From assembly GCF_900104475.1 (NCBI RefSeq), contig NZ_FNJR01000003.1, forward strand, positions 350,917 through 414,916: a DNA stretch of 64,000 bases, written 5' to 3'. The first letter of the stretch is position 1. Each line of letters starts with the position of its first letter. The notes below the pieces were generated by a model. It was not told the origin of the DNA. It ran no database searches and saw only the letters and a list, made by a program, of their open reading frames with translations. The translations under genes and the position numbers were made by a program. Shown here piece by piece: positions 38,479 to 45,172 of this stretch. This stretch comes from Actinopolyspora xinjiangensis (GTDB lineage Bacteria > Actinomycetota > Actinomycetes > Mycobacteriales > Pseudonocardiaceae).

Positions 38479-39468
38479 TCAGGCCGCCGCGTCGACCATT
38501 CCGCTGACCTCGGCCACCAGTTCGAAGGAGCGCAGCCAGGCGTCCCGCTCGGGTGCCAGCGAGGTGACCATCAGCTCGTCGGCCCGGGCGTGCTCGGCGA
38601 AACCGTCCAGATAGTTCCTGACCTCGTCGGCGGTCCCGACCGCGGAGTAAGTCAGCATCTGCTGAGCCTGCTGCCCGGCGGGTGAGTCCAGGGCGCTGTC
38701 GGCCTCCTCCCGGGTCAGGTTCCGGCCGGTGAGCAACCGCAGCCTGCTGCGCTTGGCGGCCTGGAACTGCTCCCGCGCCTGCTCGGCCGAGTCGGCGGCG
38801 ACGATGTTGACTCCCGCGATGACGTGGGGTTGCGACAGCTGCTCGGACGGGGTGAACTGACGCCGGTAGACCGAGACCGCGTCCTCCAGCGCGTTCGGGG
38901 CGAAGTGCGAGGCGAACGAGTACGGCAACCCGAGCGCGGCGGCGAGCTTGGCGCCGAACAGCGAGGAGCCCAGGATGTAGAGCGGGACGCCGGTCCCCCT
39001 GCCCGGCACGGCCTGCACCCCCTGCACCAGGGATTCCTCGCCCAGGTAGCCCTGCAGCTCCCGCACGTCCTGCGGGAAGGTCTCGGCGGCCTTCGGATCG
39101 CGGCGCAGCGCCCGCGCGGTCTGCTGGTCACTGCCCGGCGCCCTGCCCAGGCCGAGATCGATCCGTCCCGGGTGCAGGGTCTCCAGCGTTCCGAACTGCT
39201 CGGCGACGGTCAGCGGAGCGTGGTTCGGCAGCATGATGCCACCCGCGCCGACGCGGATGGAACTGGTGTGCGCGGCGATGTGTCCGATGATGACGCTGGT
39301 CGCCGAGGAGGCGATGCGCGGCATGTTGTGGTGTTCGGCGTACCAGATGCGCCGGTACCCCCACCGCTCGGCTCGCTGCGCCAGATCGATGCTGGCCCGA
39401 AGGCTGTCACCCGGGGTCTCGTCCCGACCGACGTTGGCGAGATCGAGGATGGACAGCGGAACACCCAT
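38479..39468 (-). CDS. Luciferase-like flavin-dependent oxidoreductase
   Basis: 329 residues from ATG 39468. It is a TIM-barrel flavin monooxygenase of the LLM class: [73 protein letters not shown] and [20 protein letters not shown]. It should use reduced FMN or F420 on an unknown substrate. The upstream region contains a near-repeat of TGTGACAGATTCTGACACAG that may be an operator. Confidence 0.92.
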
Positions 39469-39634
39469 GGCAAACGCACCCTTCCACACAGATACTGTGA
39501 CAGATTCTGACACAGTTTTTCCGGCCAACCGTTCGAACGCGCTCGACCGGAAGGGGTATTCCCGGCATCGCACGGATCACATGTTCGCCGTCACGGTCCC
39601 GCCCGGTGCGGGACCGCTACCGGCCCGCGCACCG

Positions 39635-42600
39635 TCACCGCCCGCCGAGCGGGCGGATGCCACCGTCCTCCCGTCCGAGGAACCTCTCGTCGAAGAGCCG
39701 CCATGCGGGCACGCGGAACGCGGCGCGCCCCTCCTCCGGGGCCGCCAGCAGTCGGCTGTGTTCGTACCGTAAGCGAAGATGACGCCCGGGAGGCATCTCA
39801 CCGTACCCCCTGTCGAGTAATACGGCGGTCTCTCCGGCCCCTTCGCTAACCAGCACGTCGGCACGGTGGCCGCGCACCTCCTCCGCCAACGAACACTCAC
39901 CACTCGTACGAGAGCTGAGCTGCTTGTACAGCCTCATCAGGAGGCGATCCTCGGTAAGATCCGGCTCATCCCACGGACCGCTCCCATCATTGCCGGCGAT
40001 CTCGGCGAGGTACCCGCCGATGCCGCCCTGTTTACGCCATACCTCACGGTCACCTACCACGATGAGGTGGGAACGTGCGCGAGTGATCGCGACGTTCCAG
40101 AGGTTCCACTGGTTGTTGAGCCACGCCCGGGTACCGGGTTTTACCTCAGCACCCGCTACCAGAGAGAACACGATCGCGTCACGTTCAGACCCCTGGAACC
40201 GGTGCACGGTGCCCACCTGGACACGATCTTCGTCGCCACACCATCGCTGCAACAGCTTCGCCTGCGCGGCGAACGGGGTCACGATCCCCACCTCACCGTC
40301 TTCGGGAAGTTTTCGAAGCAGATACCGCACCGACTCGACCACCCGAAGAGCCTCGTCCTGATTCACCCACGAACCGTCACGTTGGCGCTGGGCTCGCCCT
40401 GACACATCGGACCACACCACTGGAGGGCGGTCGATACCACGCTGTCTACCCACATCGGTGAGCACGGCAAGTTGACGGCCGTAGAACGAGGCGTTGGACA
40501 CGGTGGCGATACGCGGATGGCAGCGAAAGTGCTCGTCGAGCAGCAGACTCCCGCCCGTATGCCGACGGAAGGCATGGAACGCGGAGTGTCGATGATAGGT
40601 ACGGCGCTGTTCTTCCAGCCAGCCTCCGTCGATACCGGCTTCGCGACGCGCTTCGGCCTCCCGCGTGCTGCTGAGCGTCACCACGGGAGGCAACTGCATC
40701 GGATCTCCGATGATCAGCACGCGTTTGGCCCGGTAAAGCACCGGAAGCACCTGGGGGATCGAGCACTGACTCGCCTCGTCCACGATCGCGAGGTCGAACA
40801 GTCTCGGTGCGAGCGGAAACCGGCTCGCACTCTGGTTCGTGACCGCCCAGCCGCGCACGTGGCGAAGCACCGTCCGAAGCTCGGACCAGTCCTTCCCCTG
40901 CGCGTGGAGTAGTGCGAGGATGTCTTGCCGTCCCGCACGGGCCGCGTCGGCGACACTCTGTTCGAGCATCCGACGGGACAGTTCGTGCAGTCTCCGGTTC
41001 GCTTGTTCCAGATTCTCCCGTTGGGTGTCATCCCCGGCCAAAGCATCGGCACGCACGACCGCCTCGCGCCACAGCCGCTCGATCCTGGCCCACCGCCCGA
41101 TAGATTCGCACAATTCCGATGTGGGGTTTATCCCCTTCCTCACATTCCTGCGCAGGAACCTCGCACGACGTCGACGCCCGAACCACCTCGCTCCGGCTAC
41201 GCGTTCGGCCCGACGGGCGAGAGACTCCAGATCGGTTCTGCCACCGAGCTCGCGAGACAGCCCCGCGAGCGTGTCGTCCAACTGCCCGACGAGTTCGGCA
41301 CGCTGTTCCCCCAACGACAGCAGCTCACTCTCACACTCGGCCTTGGTGGCGATCCACTTCCTGGCCTGATCCAACTCCTCATTGGCCCACTTGAGTTCGG
41401 CGGAGACAGTGGCACGATTCGTGTTCGATCCGTCGTTGTCGAGTACTTTCCGCAGTTCCTCCCGCTCCTTATCCCGGTAGTTGACCCGTGTGTAGGCGCT
41501 GCCGGTACGGATCAGCGAGCCCGGCACGAGATCCGAACAGCGCTGCCACACCTCATCCACTGCGCGATTGTTGCTGGAAGTCATCAACACTGACTGGCCT
41601 GCGGACACCGCGGTGGCGACGAGATTGGCCACGAGTTGACTCTTGCCCGTCCCCGGAGGTCCGGTCGCGACGGTGAGCGTCCTGCTCATCGCGGACGCGA
41701 GAATCTCCTCCTGTCTTTCGTTCAGCGGTCGGGGCGCGACCCGTTGCCATCTCCTGGTCTCGTCCCACTCGATCTCGCCGGTAAGCAAAGGCGACAACGC
41801 GGTTCTGCGGAGTGTTTTCGTGTCCGATGTGGCTATCTTCTCGAGCTCTTCGAGTAGCTTCTTGTTCGCTTGATTCCGTGTGGGCAGAGAAAACAGGACG
41901 GCAGCGTTGCGCGCACCTTCCGCAGGGGTCCTGCGATCGATATTCGGTTCCAGTTCGAGCGGACGCAACGGCTCGACCTCCCGGAGTCGGAACTCCTCAC
42001 GGAGGTAGTAGCTTGTCTCCTGCACGAGCTGGTTGTGCATACCAGCGCGCCAGTGAGAATAAAAGGTCTCCCTGAGCTTGGCTGCTCCCTCAGTTCCCAT
42101 CGTCCGTTCCGCCAACTGCGGATGTGGAAGGATCTCTCCCTGGGGTTCGAGCCGTTCGTTGCCCTCGTCGTCTGAGACCACATGAACACGGCGGACGAAC
42201 AGTGGGGCGAACTGGGGCGTCCGATACCGCTGCCCACGGGCGTCATGTCGCAGCACCACAGCCGGATAGCCGTACCAGAGCTCGTCACCGTCGTGCACGG
42301 TCTGGTCAACGAAAGACGTCGCTTCCTCCGGCACGGGGAGCGTCCCGTTCTCGTCCAAGTCTCCCGAGAGCAGGCACTCGCTGCCCGTTAGACACACATA
42401 ACGCTCATCAGACTGGTCAACCCCCATAAGGGGCATAGTGTCCTCACCGTCTCGAAGACACCGACGGTAATAGTCCAACAACACGGACCAGCGGGTTTCC
42501 GATCCCGTGTCCGAGGCAACCGTTCGGGGCAGCGACTTCGCTTCCTCGGCCGAAGGCGCGGGAGCAGGTTTTAGCGGGGGACCCGAGTACGCACGTGCCA

Positions 42601-43360
42601 GCACGATGTCCGCGTTGACCTTGTCGGACGAGAAGGTGGGGAACTGCTCCGACTCGGCATCCTCACGGTTCCGCATCCGGTTGCTGACGTATCGGAACAA
42701 CTCGTCCACGGATACGAGACCGTCATTGTCGGTGTCGCAGCGTCCGGTACGCAACGCCTCGAGCACTTCACCCGTGAACACCGAAGGAAGTGGACCATCC
42801 GGTGTTTCCTCGCCGCCCCAGGACTTCTCGTTCGGCCCGGACGAGGAAACGACATAGACGCCACGACTGTTGAGAAGCTTGGGGGAAGGGCCAGCCGACT
42901 TAGACTCACGAGTACGTATTCCGAGACTGTAACCACCGCTGTAACAGCAGTCGAGCATCGCGACCTTCTGCGGGGCGGCACACAGCTCCAAGTATTCGTT
43001 GACGAAGGACGCTCCGACGCCGGTGTTCTCTATGCTGTCAGCGTCGGAACTGTCGCTGTCGGAGGCGAGGAAGAAGAACTCTCCACTGGAAAGAACCCGT
43101 GTGCCGTGACCGCTGATGTAGAGCAATCCCAGATCCTGGGCTCCGAGACCGCCGAGGAACTCCGCGATCACTCGCGACATCTCCACGGCGGTCGGATCGA
43201 GTACCACTCCTACATCGGTGAACGCCCCGATAGCGGGGTGTTCCAGTACCTGTCGCAGCTGGGTGATGTCGGCTCTCGCGCACCGCAGCTCCCCCAGATC
43301 AGGGTCGTCGTAGCTCTCAGTCCCGATTAGCAGTGCTCGCTTGTACAGGTGGTCACTCAC
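39635..43360 (-). CDS. Metacaspase-EF hand-SF1 helicase fusion (conflict-system effector candidate)
   Basis: 1,241 residues from GTG 43360, overlapping the stop of the EACC1-like gene (GTGA). The N-terminus is a caspase-like (C14) protease with catalytic His85 in YISGHGTRV and Cys139 in MLDCCYSGG. Residues 209-220 (DTDNDGLVSVDE) form a perfect EF-hand loop, suggesting Ca2+ control. A DUF-like linker follows, then an SF1 (UPF1/DNA2-type) helicase: Walker A GPPGTGKS (567-574), a coiled-coil insertion (about 650-800), VDEAS (860-864), GDPMQLPPV, HRFQGSERD (1053) and NVAITRAR (1089). Protease and NTPase motifs all look intact. It is inferred to act as a nucleic-acid- or phage-triggered suicide effector. 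Confidence 0.85.
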   Translation of the reverse strand: MSDHLYKRALLIGTESYDDPDLGELRCARADITQLRQVLEHPAIGAFTDVGVVLDPTAVEMSRVIAEFLGGLGAQDLGLLYISGHGTRVLSSGEFFFLASDSDSSDADSIENTGVGASFVNEYLELCAAPQKVAMLDCCYSGGYSLGIRTRESKSAGPSPKLLNSRGVYVVSSSGPNEKSWGGEETPDGPLPSVFTGEVLEALRTGRCDTDNDGLVSVDELFRYVSNRMRNREDAESEQFPTFSSDKVNADIVLARAYSGPPLKPAPAPSAEEAKSLPRTVASDTGSETRWSVLLDYYRRCLRDGEDTMPLMGVDQSDERYVCLTGSECLLSGDLDENGTLPVPEEATSFVDQTVHDGDELWYGYPAVVLRHDARGQRYRTPQFAPLFVRRVHVVSDDEGNERLEPQGEILPHPQLAERTMGTEGAAKLRETFYSHWRAGMHNQLVQETSYYLREEFRLREVEPLRPLELEPNIDRRTPAEGARNAAVLFSLPTRNQANKKLLEELEKIATSDTKTLRRTALSPLLTGEIEWDETRRWQRVAPRPLNERQEEILASAMSRTLTVATGPPGTGKSQLVANLVATAVSAGQSVLMTSSNNRAVDEVWQRCSDLVPGSLIRTGSAYTRVNYRDKEREELRKVLDNDGSNTNRATVSAELKWANEELDQARKWIATKAECESELLSLGEQRAELVGQLDDTLAGLSRELGGRTDLESLARRAERVAGARWFGRRRRARFLRRNVRKGINPTSELCESIGRWARIERLWREAVVRADALAGDDTQRENLEQANRRLHELSRRMLEQSVADAARAGRQDILALLHAQGKDWSELRTVLRHVRGWAVTNQSASRFPLAPRLFDLAIVDEASQCSIPQVLPVLYRAKRVLIIGDPMQLPPVVTLSSTREAEARREAGIDGGWLEEQRRTYHRHSAFHAFRRHTGGSLLLDEHFRCHPRIATVSNASFYGRQLAVLTDVGRQRGIDRPPVVWSDVSGRAQRQRDGSWVNQDEALRVVESVRYLLRKLPEDGEVGIVTPFAAQAKLLQRWCGDEDRVQVGTVHRFQGSERDAIVFSLVAGAEVKPGTRAWLNNQWNLWNVAITRARSHLIVVGDREVWRKQGGIGGYLAEIAGNDGSGPWDEPDLTEDRLLMRLYKQLSSRTSGECSLAEEVRGHRADVLVSEGAGETAVLLDRGYGEMPPGRHLRLRYEHSRLLAAPEEGRAAFRVPAWRLFDERFLGREDGGIRPLGGR

Positions 43361-43740
43361 GAGCGTTCGTTCTCCAGGATTCGTTCGACGAGATGCCGCT
43401 GGGTTTCGTCCGTGTCAGGTGGAAGCCTGTACTCCGCACCGTCCTTAGTCCGGAGATGCACGATGCGGTCATGCTGCTTGGCCGACCAGGCCCGGATGCT
43501 TTCCAGCAGTACGGAAACGGTGCCCTTCCCCGTGGTCACCAGAGCGATCGCCAGAGCGAGTTCCCCGAGTACGGAGCCGCTCTTCTCCCCACCCGAGGCG
43601 GGCTCGGAGTCAGCCGTGATTCGGATGTTCACTCCTTCCACCTCCGCGAGGTGGGTACGCAACGAACGCAGCAACCGCTCCTCGAGAACGGCGTTACCTG
43701 CCACGGGCACTCGGAGTTCCAAGGCGGATTCATTGATCAT
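43357..43740 (-). CDS. EACC1-like effector-associated component
   Basis: 127 residues from ATG 43740 with GGAGG six bases upstream. The fold pattern is LELRVPVAGNAVLEERLLRS, a variable middle, GSVLGELALAIALVTTGKGT with a hydrophobic helix, SIRAWSAKQHDRIVHLRTKD and a final QRHLVERILENE. This matches the effector-associated constant component EACC1 family described in NTP-dependent conflict systems, as I recall it. It is coupled to the caspase-helicase gene, making a two-component unit. Its likely role is to tether or gate the effector. Confidence 0.7.
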   Translation of the reverse strand: MINESALELRVPVAGNAVLEERLLRSLRTHLAEVEGVNIRITADSEPASGGEKSGSVLGELALAIALVTTGKGTVSVLLESIRAWSAKQHDRIVHLRTKDGAEYRLPPDTDETQRHLVERILENERS

Positions 43741-43894
43741 GCTTACCTCCACAAGATCACTTTCTCGCGGAGAGCGTATTACAACGGTGAGTAGCCACAC
43801 AGGATGTTGTTCGAGAGATCGCGCTCCAGTACCTCTAGAAACTCTCTCTGCCTCAATCGAACGTGGTTCCCGCCGCGGCGACGGGACACAGCGA

Positions 43895-45172
43895 CTACGA
43901 CTCCCCCGTCGCGCGGTGCTTCTCCCCCGCCCCGGCGGGGACCCGGGAGGGATCCCGGAAGACCTCCTCGGTGATGACGCTCGTCCCGCCCCGCACCGCC
44001 GCGGTGAAACCGTGGACCGAGGCGGTGATGGGACACACCGCCGTTTCCCCCGCGACCGTTCGAGCTCGCAGCTCCCGCATCGCGGTCGGAACCACGTAGG
44101 GCGAGACCGTGGCGAAGTAACCACCGAGCACCACGCCCCCCGGGTTCAGCATGTTGACCGCGATCGAGATCCCGACACCGAGCCAACGCCCGATCTCGTC
44201 GAGCCCGGTCAGCGCCTGTGGGTTGCCGGCTTCCGCACGGCGGAGCAGTATGCGCGCCTGCTCCTCGGGCTCGCGGAAGGTCCCGACCAGATCCGGCGCG
44301 GCGGTCCGGGCCGCCGCCGCGAGTCCGATCTTGGTTTCCAGGCAACCGTTCTGCCCGCAGCGGCACTTTCGCCCGTAGGGATCCACCGGAACGTGCCCGA
44401 TCTCCCCGCTGTAGCCGTCCGACCCCCGCAACAGTCCACCCTCGGAGATCAACCCGGCGCCGATGCCGAGTTCTCCCGTCAGGTACACGAGTTCCGAGAC
44501 CGTGTTCGACTCGTCGCCGAACTCGGCCAACGCGGCCAGGTTGGCCTCGTTGTCGACCGTGATCGTGGTCTCCTCACCGAGGGCGAGTCGACGGCGCAGC
44601 CACTCGGTGATCGGCACGTCCTGCCAGTACAGGTTCGGCGCGTAGCGCACGGTGCCGCTCGGCACGTCCACCAGACCGGGAACCGCCACCCCGATGCCGA
44701 CCAGATGCGCTCCCGACTCCGCAAGCTCGGCGATGGCCTCGCCGGCGAGCCGTGCCAGCTCCCCCACCGTGCGGGAGGCGCCCACCCGGACGGCGTCGAA
44801 GGCGATCCGGCGATCGAGCAGCACCCGGTCCGCTAGGTCGACCGCTCGCACGGCGAGGTAGTTCGCGTTGACCTCCAGCCCCAGCGCCGCCGAGGACCCG
44901 CCGTCGAGTTCGAGTATCCGCCCCGGTCGGCCGACGTTGCCCGCCTGCCGCCTGCCGGTCTCACGGACCAGGCCCCGTTCGATCAGCTCGTTGACGAGGT
45001 TGGACACCGTGGCCTTGGTGAGCCCGGTCCGCGTGGCCAGCGCCGCGCGGGAATGCGTTCCGGAGAACCTGACCTCACCGAGCACCCGGGCCAGATTGCT
45101 CCGCCGCACGGCGGACTGAGCGATGGCTCCCCGCCGGCTGTCCCGGTTGGCTTCGTCGCCGTGGCCGCGCAC
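43895..45172 (-). CDS. ROK-family repressor (XylR type)
   Basis: 425 residues from GTG 45172 with a GGGGGAA box. The N-terminal winged helix is HSRAALATRTGLTKATVSNL then VNELIERGLVRETGRRQAG. The ROK domain carries ALGLEVNANYLAVRAVD, GIGVAVPGLVDVPSGTV, the zinc motif CRCGQNGCLE and GEIGHVPVDPYGRK. ROK/XylR proteins sense xylose or glucose-type sugars. Neighbouring GH10/GH11 xylanases suggest control of xylan use, though no operator linking them was proven. Confidence 0.92.
   Translation of the reverse strand: MRGHGDEANRDSRRGAIAQSAVRRSNLARVLGEVRFSGTHSRAALATRTGLTKATVSNLVNELIERGLVRETGRRQAGNVGRPGRILELDGGSSAALGLEVNANYLAVRAVDLADRVLLDRRIAFDAVRVGASRTVGELARLAGEAIAELAESGAHLVGIGVAVPGLVDVPSGTVRYAPNLYWQDVPITEWLRRRLALGEETTITVDNEANLAALAEFGDESNTVSELVYLTGELGIGAGLISEGGLLRGSDGYSGEIGHVPVDPYGRKCRCGQNGCLETKIGLAAAARTAAPDLVGTFREPEEQARILLRRAEAGNPQALTGLDEIGRWLGVGISIAVNMLNPGGVVLGGYFATVSPYVVPTAMRELRARTVAGETAVCPITASVHGFTAAVRGGTSVITEEVFRDPSRVPAGAGEKHRATGES

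Follow-up and report, generated by a model that had tools for sequence, protein, structure and literature searches.

A candidate EACC1-caspase defence module with a caspase-SF1 helicase fusion in Actinopolyspora xinjiangensis

We analysed a 64,000-nucleotide stretch of the Actinopolyspora xinjiangensis genome (contig NZ_FNJR01000003.1, positions 350,917 to 414,916; hereafter the window), in which two minus-strand genes form a compact module: a gene for an EACC1 protein lies 5' of a gene for a caspase fused to a superfamily 1 (SF1) helicase (Table 1). A preliminary description, made from the sequence alone, had given the coordinates, strand and reading frames of both genes and had noted that the GTG start of the fusion overlaps the EACC1 stop codon; all of this was correct. 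A Shine-Dalgarno-like GGAG(G) was seen by eye before both start codons, and the overlap indicates that the two genes are probably co-translated. Each of the families represented in the module gave one match in this genome.

Table 1. Features of the module and its chromosomal slot, in window coordinates (residues are those of the fusion protein)
Feature	Position	Strand	Details
EACC1 gene	43357..43740	-	127 aa, ATG start at 43740, TGA stop; PF19953
Caspase-SF1 helicase fusion gene	39635..43360	-	1241 aa, GTG start
GTGA stop/start overlap, 4 bases	43357..43360	-	TGA 43357-43359 overlaps GTG start
Caspase domain (predicted)	42668..43339	-	residues 8-231; NF047832
Caspase dyad codons	His85 43106-43108; Cys139 42944-42946	-	alignment numbering
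EF-hand-like loop DTDNDGLVSVDE	42701..42736	-	residues 209-220, within caspase model
Conserved middle domain	41726..42508	-	residues ~285-545; aligned in 19 sequences, 3 caspase-free
SF1 helicase AAA_11	40679..41725	-	residues 546-894; AAA_11 E 1e-25
Walker A	41639-41662	-	GPPGTGKS
Walker B DEASQ	40766-40780	-	motif table
SF1 helicase AAA_12	40046..40579	-	residues 928-1105; AAA_12 E 2.5e-33
C-terminal REase_MTES_1575-related domain	39683..39937	-	residues ~1142-1226; catalytic glutamate position = Leu
Variable slot	39583..43917	strand-neutral	between LLM-type oxidoreductase gene and ROK-type gene

The identity of the first gene product as EACC1-like was borne out by a match to the Pfam EACC1 model above its cut-off (E 7.3e-7, 29.6 bits versus 23.6). 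Its best 19-residue stretch has a mean hydropathy of 1.78; over 24 EACC1 proteins this value ranged from 1.19 to 2.20, and 11 of the 24 reached 1.60. The second gene product had been described as carrying a caspase-like protease with His85 and Cys139 as its dyad, and this numbering is right. The NCBIfam model NF047832 ('caspase, EACC1-associated type') matched at 148.2 bits, over its cut-off of 140. The proposed check against Pfam Peptidase_C14 gave no match to the window protein at E<=1. A search of the PDB with the single caspase sequence recovered MALT1 only at E 0.05, and a profile of 15 caspase-domain sequences recovered MALT1 at E 7e-11 together with several metacaspases. The domain is predicted to have the C14 caspase fold with a His-Cys dyad.

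The helicase was likewise confirmed to be of UPF1 type and complete, with matches to both AAA_11 and AAA_12 and with Walker A (GPPGTGKS), Walker B (DEASQ) and motif VI (NVAITRAR) all present in the window protein. TIGR00376 (IGHMBP2 family) matched it at E 7.5e-44, below the family cut-off, and the closest solved chains were Sen1, DNA2 and UPF1. A Pro/Ala-rich linker follows the caspase. Two further parts of the chain had been overlooked, namely a conserved middle domain (residues ~285-545), which gave no Pfam match and nothing under E 0.1 in a PDB profile search, and a C-terminal domain (residues ~1142-1226) that appears to be a dead nuclease.

Relatives of the fusion were found well beyond this genome. 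Of 297 family genomes, 18 (the window genome counted) have matches spanning residue 89 or earlier to residue 1224 or beyond, among which the caspase is frameshifted in L014 and L017 and the dyad is lost in L018; two additional family genomes hold a copy that is broken or cut by a contig end. With a query of the middle domain plus helicase, 39 of 394 class-level genomes matched at E 1e-40; at phylum level there were matches at 1e-60 in 4 of 296 genomes (own included in both counts), two of these four having a CxxC-rich N-terminus and no caspase. Flanks were fetched for 36 of the 43 non-own class-level matches. Five other family codes also have loci with this architecture, and by eye the dyad is intact at nine class-level loci (L054-L057, L059-L062, L069); the gene is split at L058, and the caspase is degenerate at fifteen (L063-L068, L070, L071, L073-L077, L080, L081). 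Such a conserved architecture refutes a chance fusion or assembly artefact, to which we assign next to no probability. The module was absent from the nine other genomes of the genus, and EACC1 was found in 1 of the 10 genus genomes. Searches of 72,556 plasmid and 50,697 phage records gave matches in 9 and 6, respectively, all of them partial and short of 80% coverage of the protein.

An EACC1 gene lies directly upstream of the fusion in 24 of 41 loci scanned. The spacing between the two is -4 in the window and in 18 of the other 23 loci; the GTGA junction is also present in L047, L087 and L090, where the frame is broken or the start taken by the script differs, and the remaining two spacings are -1 and +6. 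The frameshifts of L044 and L047 fall within the caspase and that of L087 farther along the gene.

Motifs were tabulated for 57 rows, and a quick maximum-likelihood tree was built on the middle and helicase columns with the motif columns removed and the root placed on L050-L052. L002 and L053 correspond to the window; L006, L036 and L032 are apparently one S. spinosa locus and were entered once, as L036; neither the table nor the tree includes L020 (internal stops) or L021 (contig end). All 24 dyad-intact loci in the table keep Walker A, Walker B and motif VI. The tree shows two clades whose helicase motifs are broken, one made up of 18 rows, each from family code f19, and the other of 8 rows (f22), and neither holds an intact dyad. 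In the f22 clade the histidine is lost (GHG to GYA). In the f19 clade the cysteine position is lost in three rows (L101, L102, L135), and the other 15 have no caspase by profile. EACC1 was searched for near the loci of both clades (L129-L144 included) and none was found.

The decayed forms themselves are of two kinds. Those of f22 (L092-L096, L098-L100) are full-length caspase-helicases with GYA, broken Walker A, Walker B and motif VI, shared flanks and no EACC1 found nearby; they appear to be dead double enzymes retained as resident genes. Those of f19 (L129-L134, L136-L144) are caspase-free decayed helicases with a broken Walker A (e.g., APPGSGAH), and a comparison of six of these loci found 1 to 3 flanking genes shared out of 3 or 4. 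Four f19 genomes (G333, G528, G641 and G678) also hold an intact copy, so that in them the decayed form occupies a locus of its own. At L101, ~0.24 kb separate the end of an open frame from the start assigned to the decayed gene; judged by eye only, this frame resembles a small roadblock/LC7-like protein.

The C-terminal domain was placed through caspase-free relatives. Pfam gave no match to the C-terminal 132 residues of the window protein, and a profile of 17 fused-clade C-termini aligned by hhalign to one of five caspase-free C-termini with a probability of 98.0 (E 1.5e-13). These five relatives (L050, L051, L052, L145 and L146) consist of a CxxC-rich N-terminus, by eye a Zn ribbon, an SF1 helicase and a C-terminus related to REase_MTES_1575; that Pfam model scored above its cut-off in L052 and L146, just below it in L145 and at 29.1 bits in L051. 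They form a candidate nuclease-helicase family akin to the window protein. The glutamate of the IECDG/VEVDG motif is kept in all five and is replaced in the window protein (by Leu) and in the other 53 table rows, and the C-terminus of the window protein is predicted to be a dead MTES_1575-type nuclease that has lost its catalytic glutamate.

The slot that holds the module varies between genomes of the genus. On one side of it lies an LLM-type oxidoreductase gene (38479-39573), on the other a ROK-type gene (43895-45172), the names having been given by eye; the GC content of the slot is 0.628, versus 0.680 and 0.665 alongside. The matched parts of the flanks are 4450 bases apart in the window genome, 384 in G177 and 186 in G117, and the slot is empty in the latter two. 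The G177 sequence aligns to the window up to position 39766 at 95.8% DNA identity and carries a remnant of 132 bases (L103:2613-2744), 116 positions of which are identical to the end of the fusion gene; from the remnant and the aligned flank, the module was probably once present in G177 and then deleted. Three further genomes (G165, G072 and G134) have ~3.7 kb of other content between the flank genes. In the two that were translated, G165 and G134, this is a single P-loop open frame of 1161-1170 codons (L105:2359-5862 and L107:2733-6218), of which the L105 copy gave a weak nSTAND5 match below the cut-off (E 0.003) and no match in PADLOC; this frame of ~1160 codons is possibly an unrecognised defence gene. 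The flank genes lie far apart in the other four genus genomes, and the slot is therefore not comparable in them.

Neighbours of the module were scanned as 75 hand-picked, crude gene calls based on GC at third codon positions (GC3), drawn from 11 of 16 loci with short ones dropped and 10 scanned singly. Among the best 25 of 88 defence families, matches within 8 kb at E 1e-30 or better were present at at least 5 of the 11 loci, a count made without a matched control. DISARM DrmD and DrmMI lie 0.2 kb downstream at L034, and the other matches were PglW at L038, a PDC-S37/Hhe-like protein at L036 and STAND_TPR at L088; L041 gave partial SspF- and SspH-like matches of 118-128 bits. The Pfam tally of the same 75 neighbours also includes ordinary metabolic families. 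The preliminary description had raised a purely housekeeping context for homologous operons, which is not the case among the operons examined. For eleven intact or EACC1-free active loci, 53 of 55 pairs share zero flanking genes and two share one, versus 2 to 12 shared genes in all 28 pairs of the eight f22 loci, a contrast weakened because relatedness confounds the comparison; the same-genus active pairs L036/L037 and L038/L039 share zero flanking genes, and four g46 loci share 2 to 6. The patchy presence of the module and the varying content of its slot suggest an accessory character, as of an optional defence device.

Sister caspases, which match the window protein no further than the caspase, were sampled by hand from the family-genome match list (n = 20). 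Their partner domains, among the best 25 of 60 families listed, include NACHT (3), nSTAND1 (3), WD40 (2) and periplasmic-binding domains (2), and also FtsK (4), DnaJ (2) and cyclophilin (2). An EACC1 frame lies directly downstream of the caspase at L111 and on the opposite strand at L121 and L123 (3 of the 20 loci), and EACC1 was not found within the fetched stretch at six others.

The same sample bears on the EF hand. The preliminary description had counted a perfect EF-hand loop as one of three fused parts and had suggested calcium gating. The loop DTDNDGLVSVDE is literally present; it is not a third domain, since it lies inside the caspase model and its Pfam EF-hand_1 score of 12.9 bits is about half the cut-off of 25.4. 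All 20 sampled sister caspases have an EF-like loop, versus a strict loop in 6 and a loose loop in 10 of the 24 dyad-intact helicase fusions, and it appears to be a caspase-family feature that is degenerate in the remaining 14. These counts weaken calcium gating.

The reading that we favour, with a probability of about 0.48, is that the two genes form an EACC1-caspase defence module with the caspase fused to an SF1 helicase, in which the helicase would be the sensor and the caspase the effector in place of a nuclease. The helicase would bind and move on invader or damaged nucleic acid; an ATP-driven change in it would switch on the attached caspase, aided by EACC1 as a co-translated regulator or substrate; and the caspase would cleave a partner or cell proteins, leading to growth arrest or death and limiting phage. 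In favour of the helicase as sensor over a released effector are the relatives armed with a nuclease, the dead nuclease domain and some of the sister-caspase partners; the FtsK, DnaJ and cyclophilin partners fit neither view clearly. An NTP-dependent protease triggered by nucleic-acid sensing had also been proposed in the preliminary description, and joint loss, defence neighbours and the variable slot are consistent with it at the level of inference. We further suggest, more tentatively, that the published EACC1-caspase logic is inverted here, with the caspase as effector and the variable C-terminus as sensor: a nucleic-acid-sensing helicase armed with a nuclease would have gained EACC1 and the caspase, its own nuclease would have died, and some descendants would have lost every enzymatic motif and become resident proteins. 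The family would then record how an effector that cuts nucleic acid gave way to one that cuts protein.

Several observations weigh against this interpretation. Kaur et al., in the available parts of their paper, take the variable domain as the effector (PMC7159879). The joint loss of EACC1, dyad and helicase motifs is a pattern and not proof, since it comprises two independent events only (sign test, p 0.5) in a tree whose root was set by choice. EACC1 went undetected in three rows that retain the dyad and the helicase (L033, which is the nearest row to the window in the tree, L040 and L042), and L048 keeps EACC1 and helicase with the dyad lost. The nuclease glutamate is gone in caspase-free decayed rows too, so its loss alone does not show replacement by a caspase and probably happened at the base of the fused clade; a rule that the glutamate is lost only alongside a caspase fails for the caspase-free decayed rows of f19. 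The acidic motif looks fully intact only in L052, L145 and L146: in L050 its first acidic residue is missing, and L051 carries Glu at that position and is missing the later Asp. That the motif is whole in only three of the five caspase-free relatives lowered our confidence in the inverted logic, and the partial degeneracy of L050 and L051, together with a recount of the defence neighbours, which has no control set, lowered it for the defence module with the helicase as sensor.

Three other explanations were weighed against a helicase sensor coupled to a caspase effector. In the model published by Kaur et al. for their System 4 (PMC7159879, in the parts available), EACC1 would be a membrane-side sensor that activates a constant caspase, which would cut itself and free the helicase as an effector against invader nucleic acid. 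The Pro/Ala-rich linker after the caspase and the hydropathy of the window EACC1 stretch would suit it, whereas the loss of the nuclease glutamate in every fused row is ill-suited to a released nucleic-acid effector; a membrane helix is not assured with only 11 of 24 EACC1 proteins reaching 1.60, and three dyad-intact fusions have no detectable EACC1. We consider this model unlikely for the window. Less likely again is a module serving cell physiology, in stress or development, and not defence. In its favour, decayed relatives persist as long open frames and share flanks, as a resident gene would (all 28 f22 pairs), and the four g46 loci also share flanking genes, but those f22 relatives have lost the dyad, the ATPase motifs and EACC1; the nine other genomes of the genus lack the intact form, the content of the slot varies, and at least 5 of 11 loci have nearby defence matches. 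A calcium-gated metacaspase with the EF-hand loop as its main switch seems very improbable. It would draw on the perfect loop of the window, on the 6 among 24 dyad-intact fusions that have the strict form and on the EF-like loop of all sampled sister caspases, but there is one loop only, and we rejected the EF hand as a separate main calcium switch on its sub-cut-off score, its place inside the caspase and its degeneracy, by the loose pattern, in most fusions.

The two-gene plan is already known. EACC1-caspase System 4 was predicted by Kaur et al. (2020, eLife; PMC7159879), who, in the parts of the paper available, place an EACC1 gene, its product having a single conserved transmembrane helix, 5' and a caspase gene with variable C-terminal domains 3' and list EACC1 systems in 671 organisms. 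The window shares the 5' EACC1 gene (PF19953), the N-terminal caspase of the 3' gene (NF047832, with its dyad) and a variable C-terminal domain, here the SF1 helicase; it adds this helicase and the dead REase-type domain, and a helicase is not named in the section on that system. Caspase-helicase chains are also known from Asplund-Samuelsson et al. (2012; PMC3501461), who counted helicase activity in 12 of 671 prokaryotic metacaspases. These have the caspase and a helicase-type domain in one chain in common with the window protein, and the available text is silent on an EACC1 partner, on a dead nuclease and on any decay within the family.

Other defence systems resemble the module in part. In Mokosh the helicase core is similar (MkoC 204 bits, MkoA 199 bits), with the best stretches on the helicase side only (residues 847-1112 and 447-1110). 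Mokosh is a kinase-helicase or helicase-PLD protein, and neither a Mokosh-type kinase nor a PLD domain was among the window's Pfam matches. Hel308 is an SF2 helicase. Hachiman HamAB and its protease forms couple a helicase sensor to an effector, with a protease fused in some variants (PMC12278908, PMC12799240); as far as the available text goes, HamB is likened to Hel308 (PMC12278908), and a trypsin-like protease serves to activate a separate MBL-fold nuclease (PMC12799240). The Canu caspase-nuclease systems, as presented in the accessible part of the same paper (PMC12799240), also have a bacterial caspase as the central protease in phage defence, and differ in having an immunoglobulin-like (Ig-like) fold, CanB and an MBL-fold nuclease; in a Pfam scan limited to the window's two proteins, neither an Ig-like fold nor an MBL pro-nuclease was matched.

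The preliminary description had known of no such fusion as a described system, and this stands for the helicase form and not for the two-gene plan or for caspase-helicase chains as such. No description of an EACC1-caspase-helicase was found in the literature, with supplements and most subscription papers outside the reach of the search, and the helicase-fused form is not described in the accessible portions of PMC7159879, PMC3501461, PMC12799240, PMC12278908 and PMC8195603. What is new is the distribution of near-full-length relatives, the variable slot, the defence-gene neighbours, the joint losses and the dead nuclease C-terminus.

The EACC1 literature that was found is computational only and comes from Kaur et al. 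The class of ligand of a helicase partner can be guessed, so that the question of which end of the protein senses and which acts can be tested in this variant. Animals link a nucleic-acid-sensing helicase to a caspase through separate proteins. If the favoured reading is true, the module of A. xinjiangensis would be a bacterial nucleic-acid-sensing helicase wired to a caspase within one chain.

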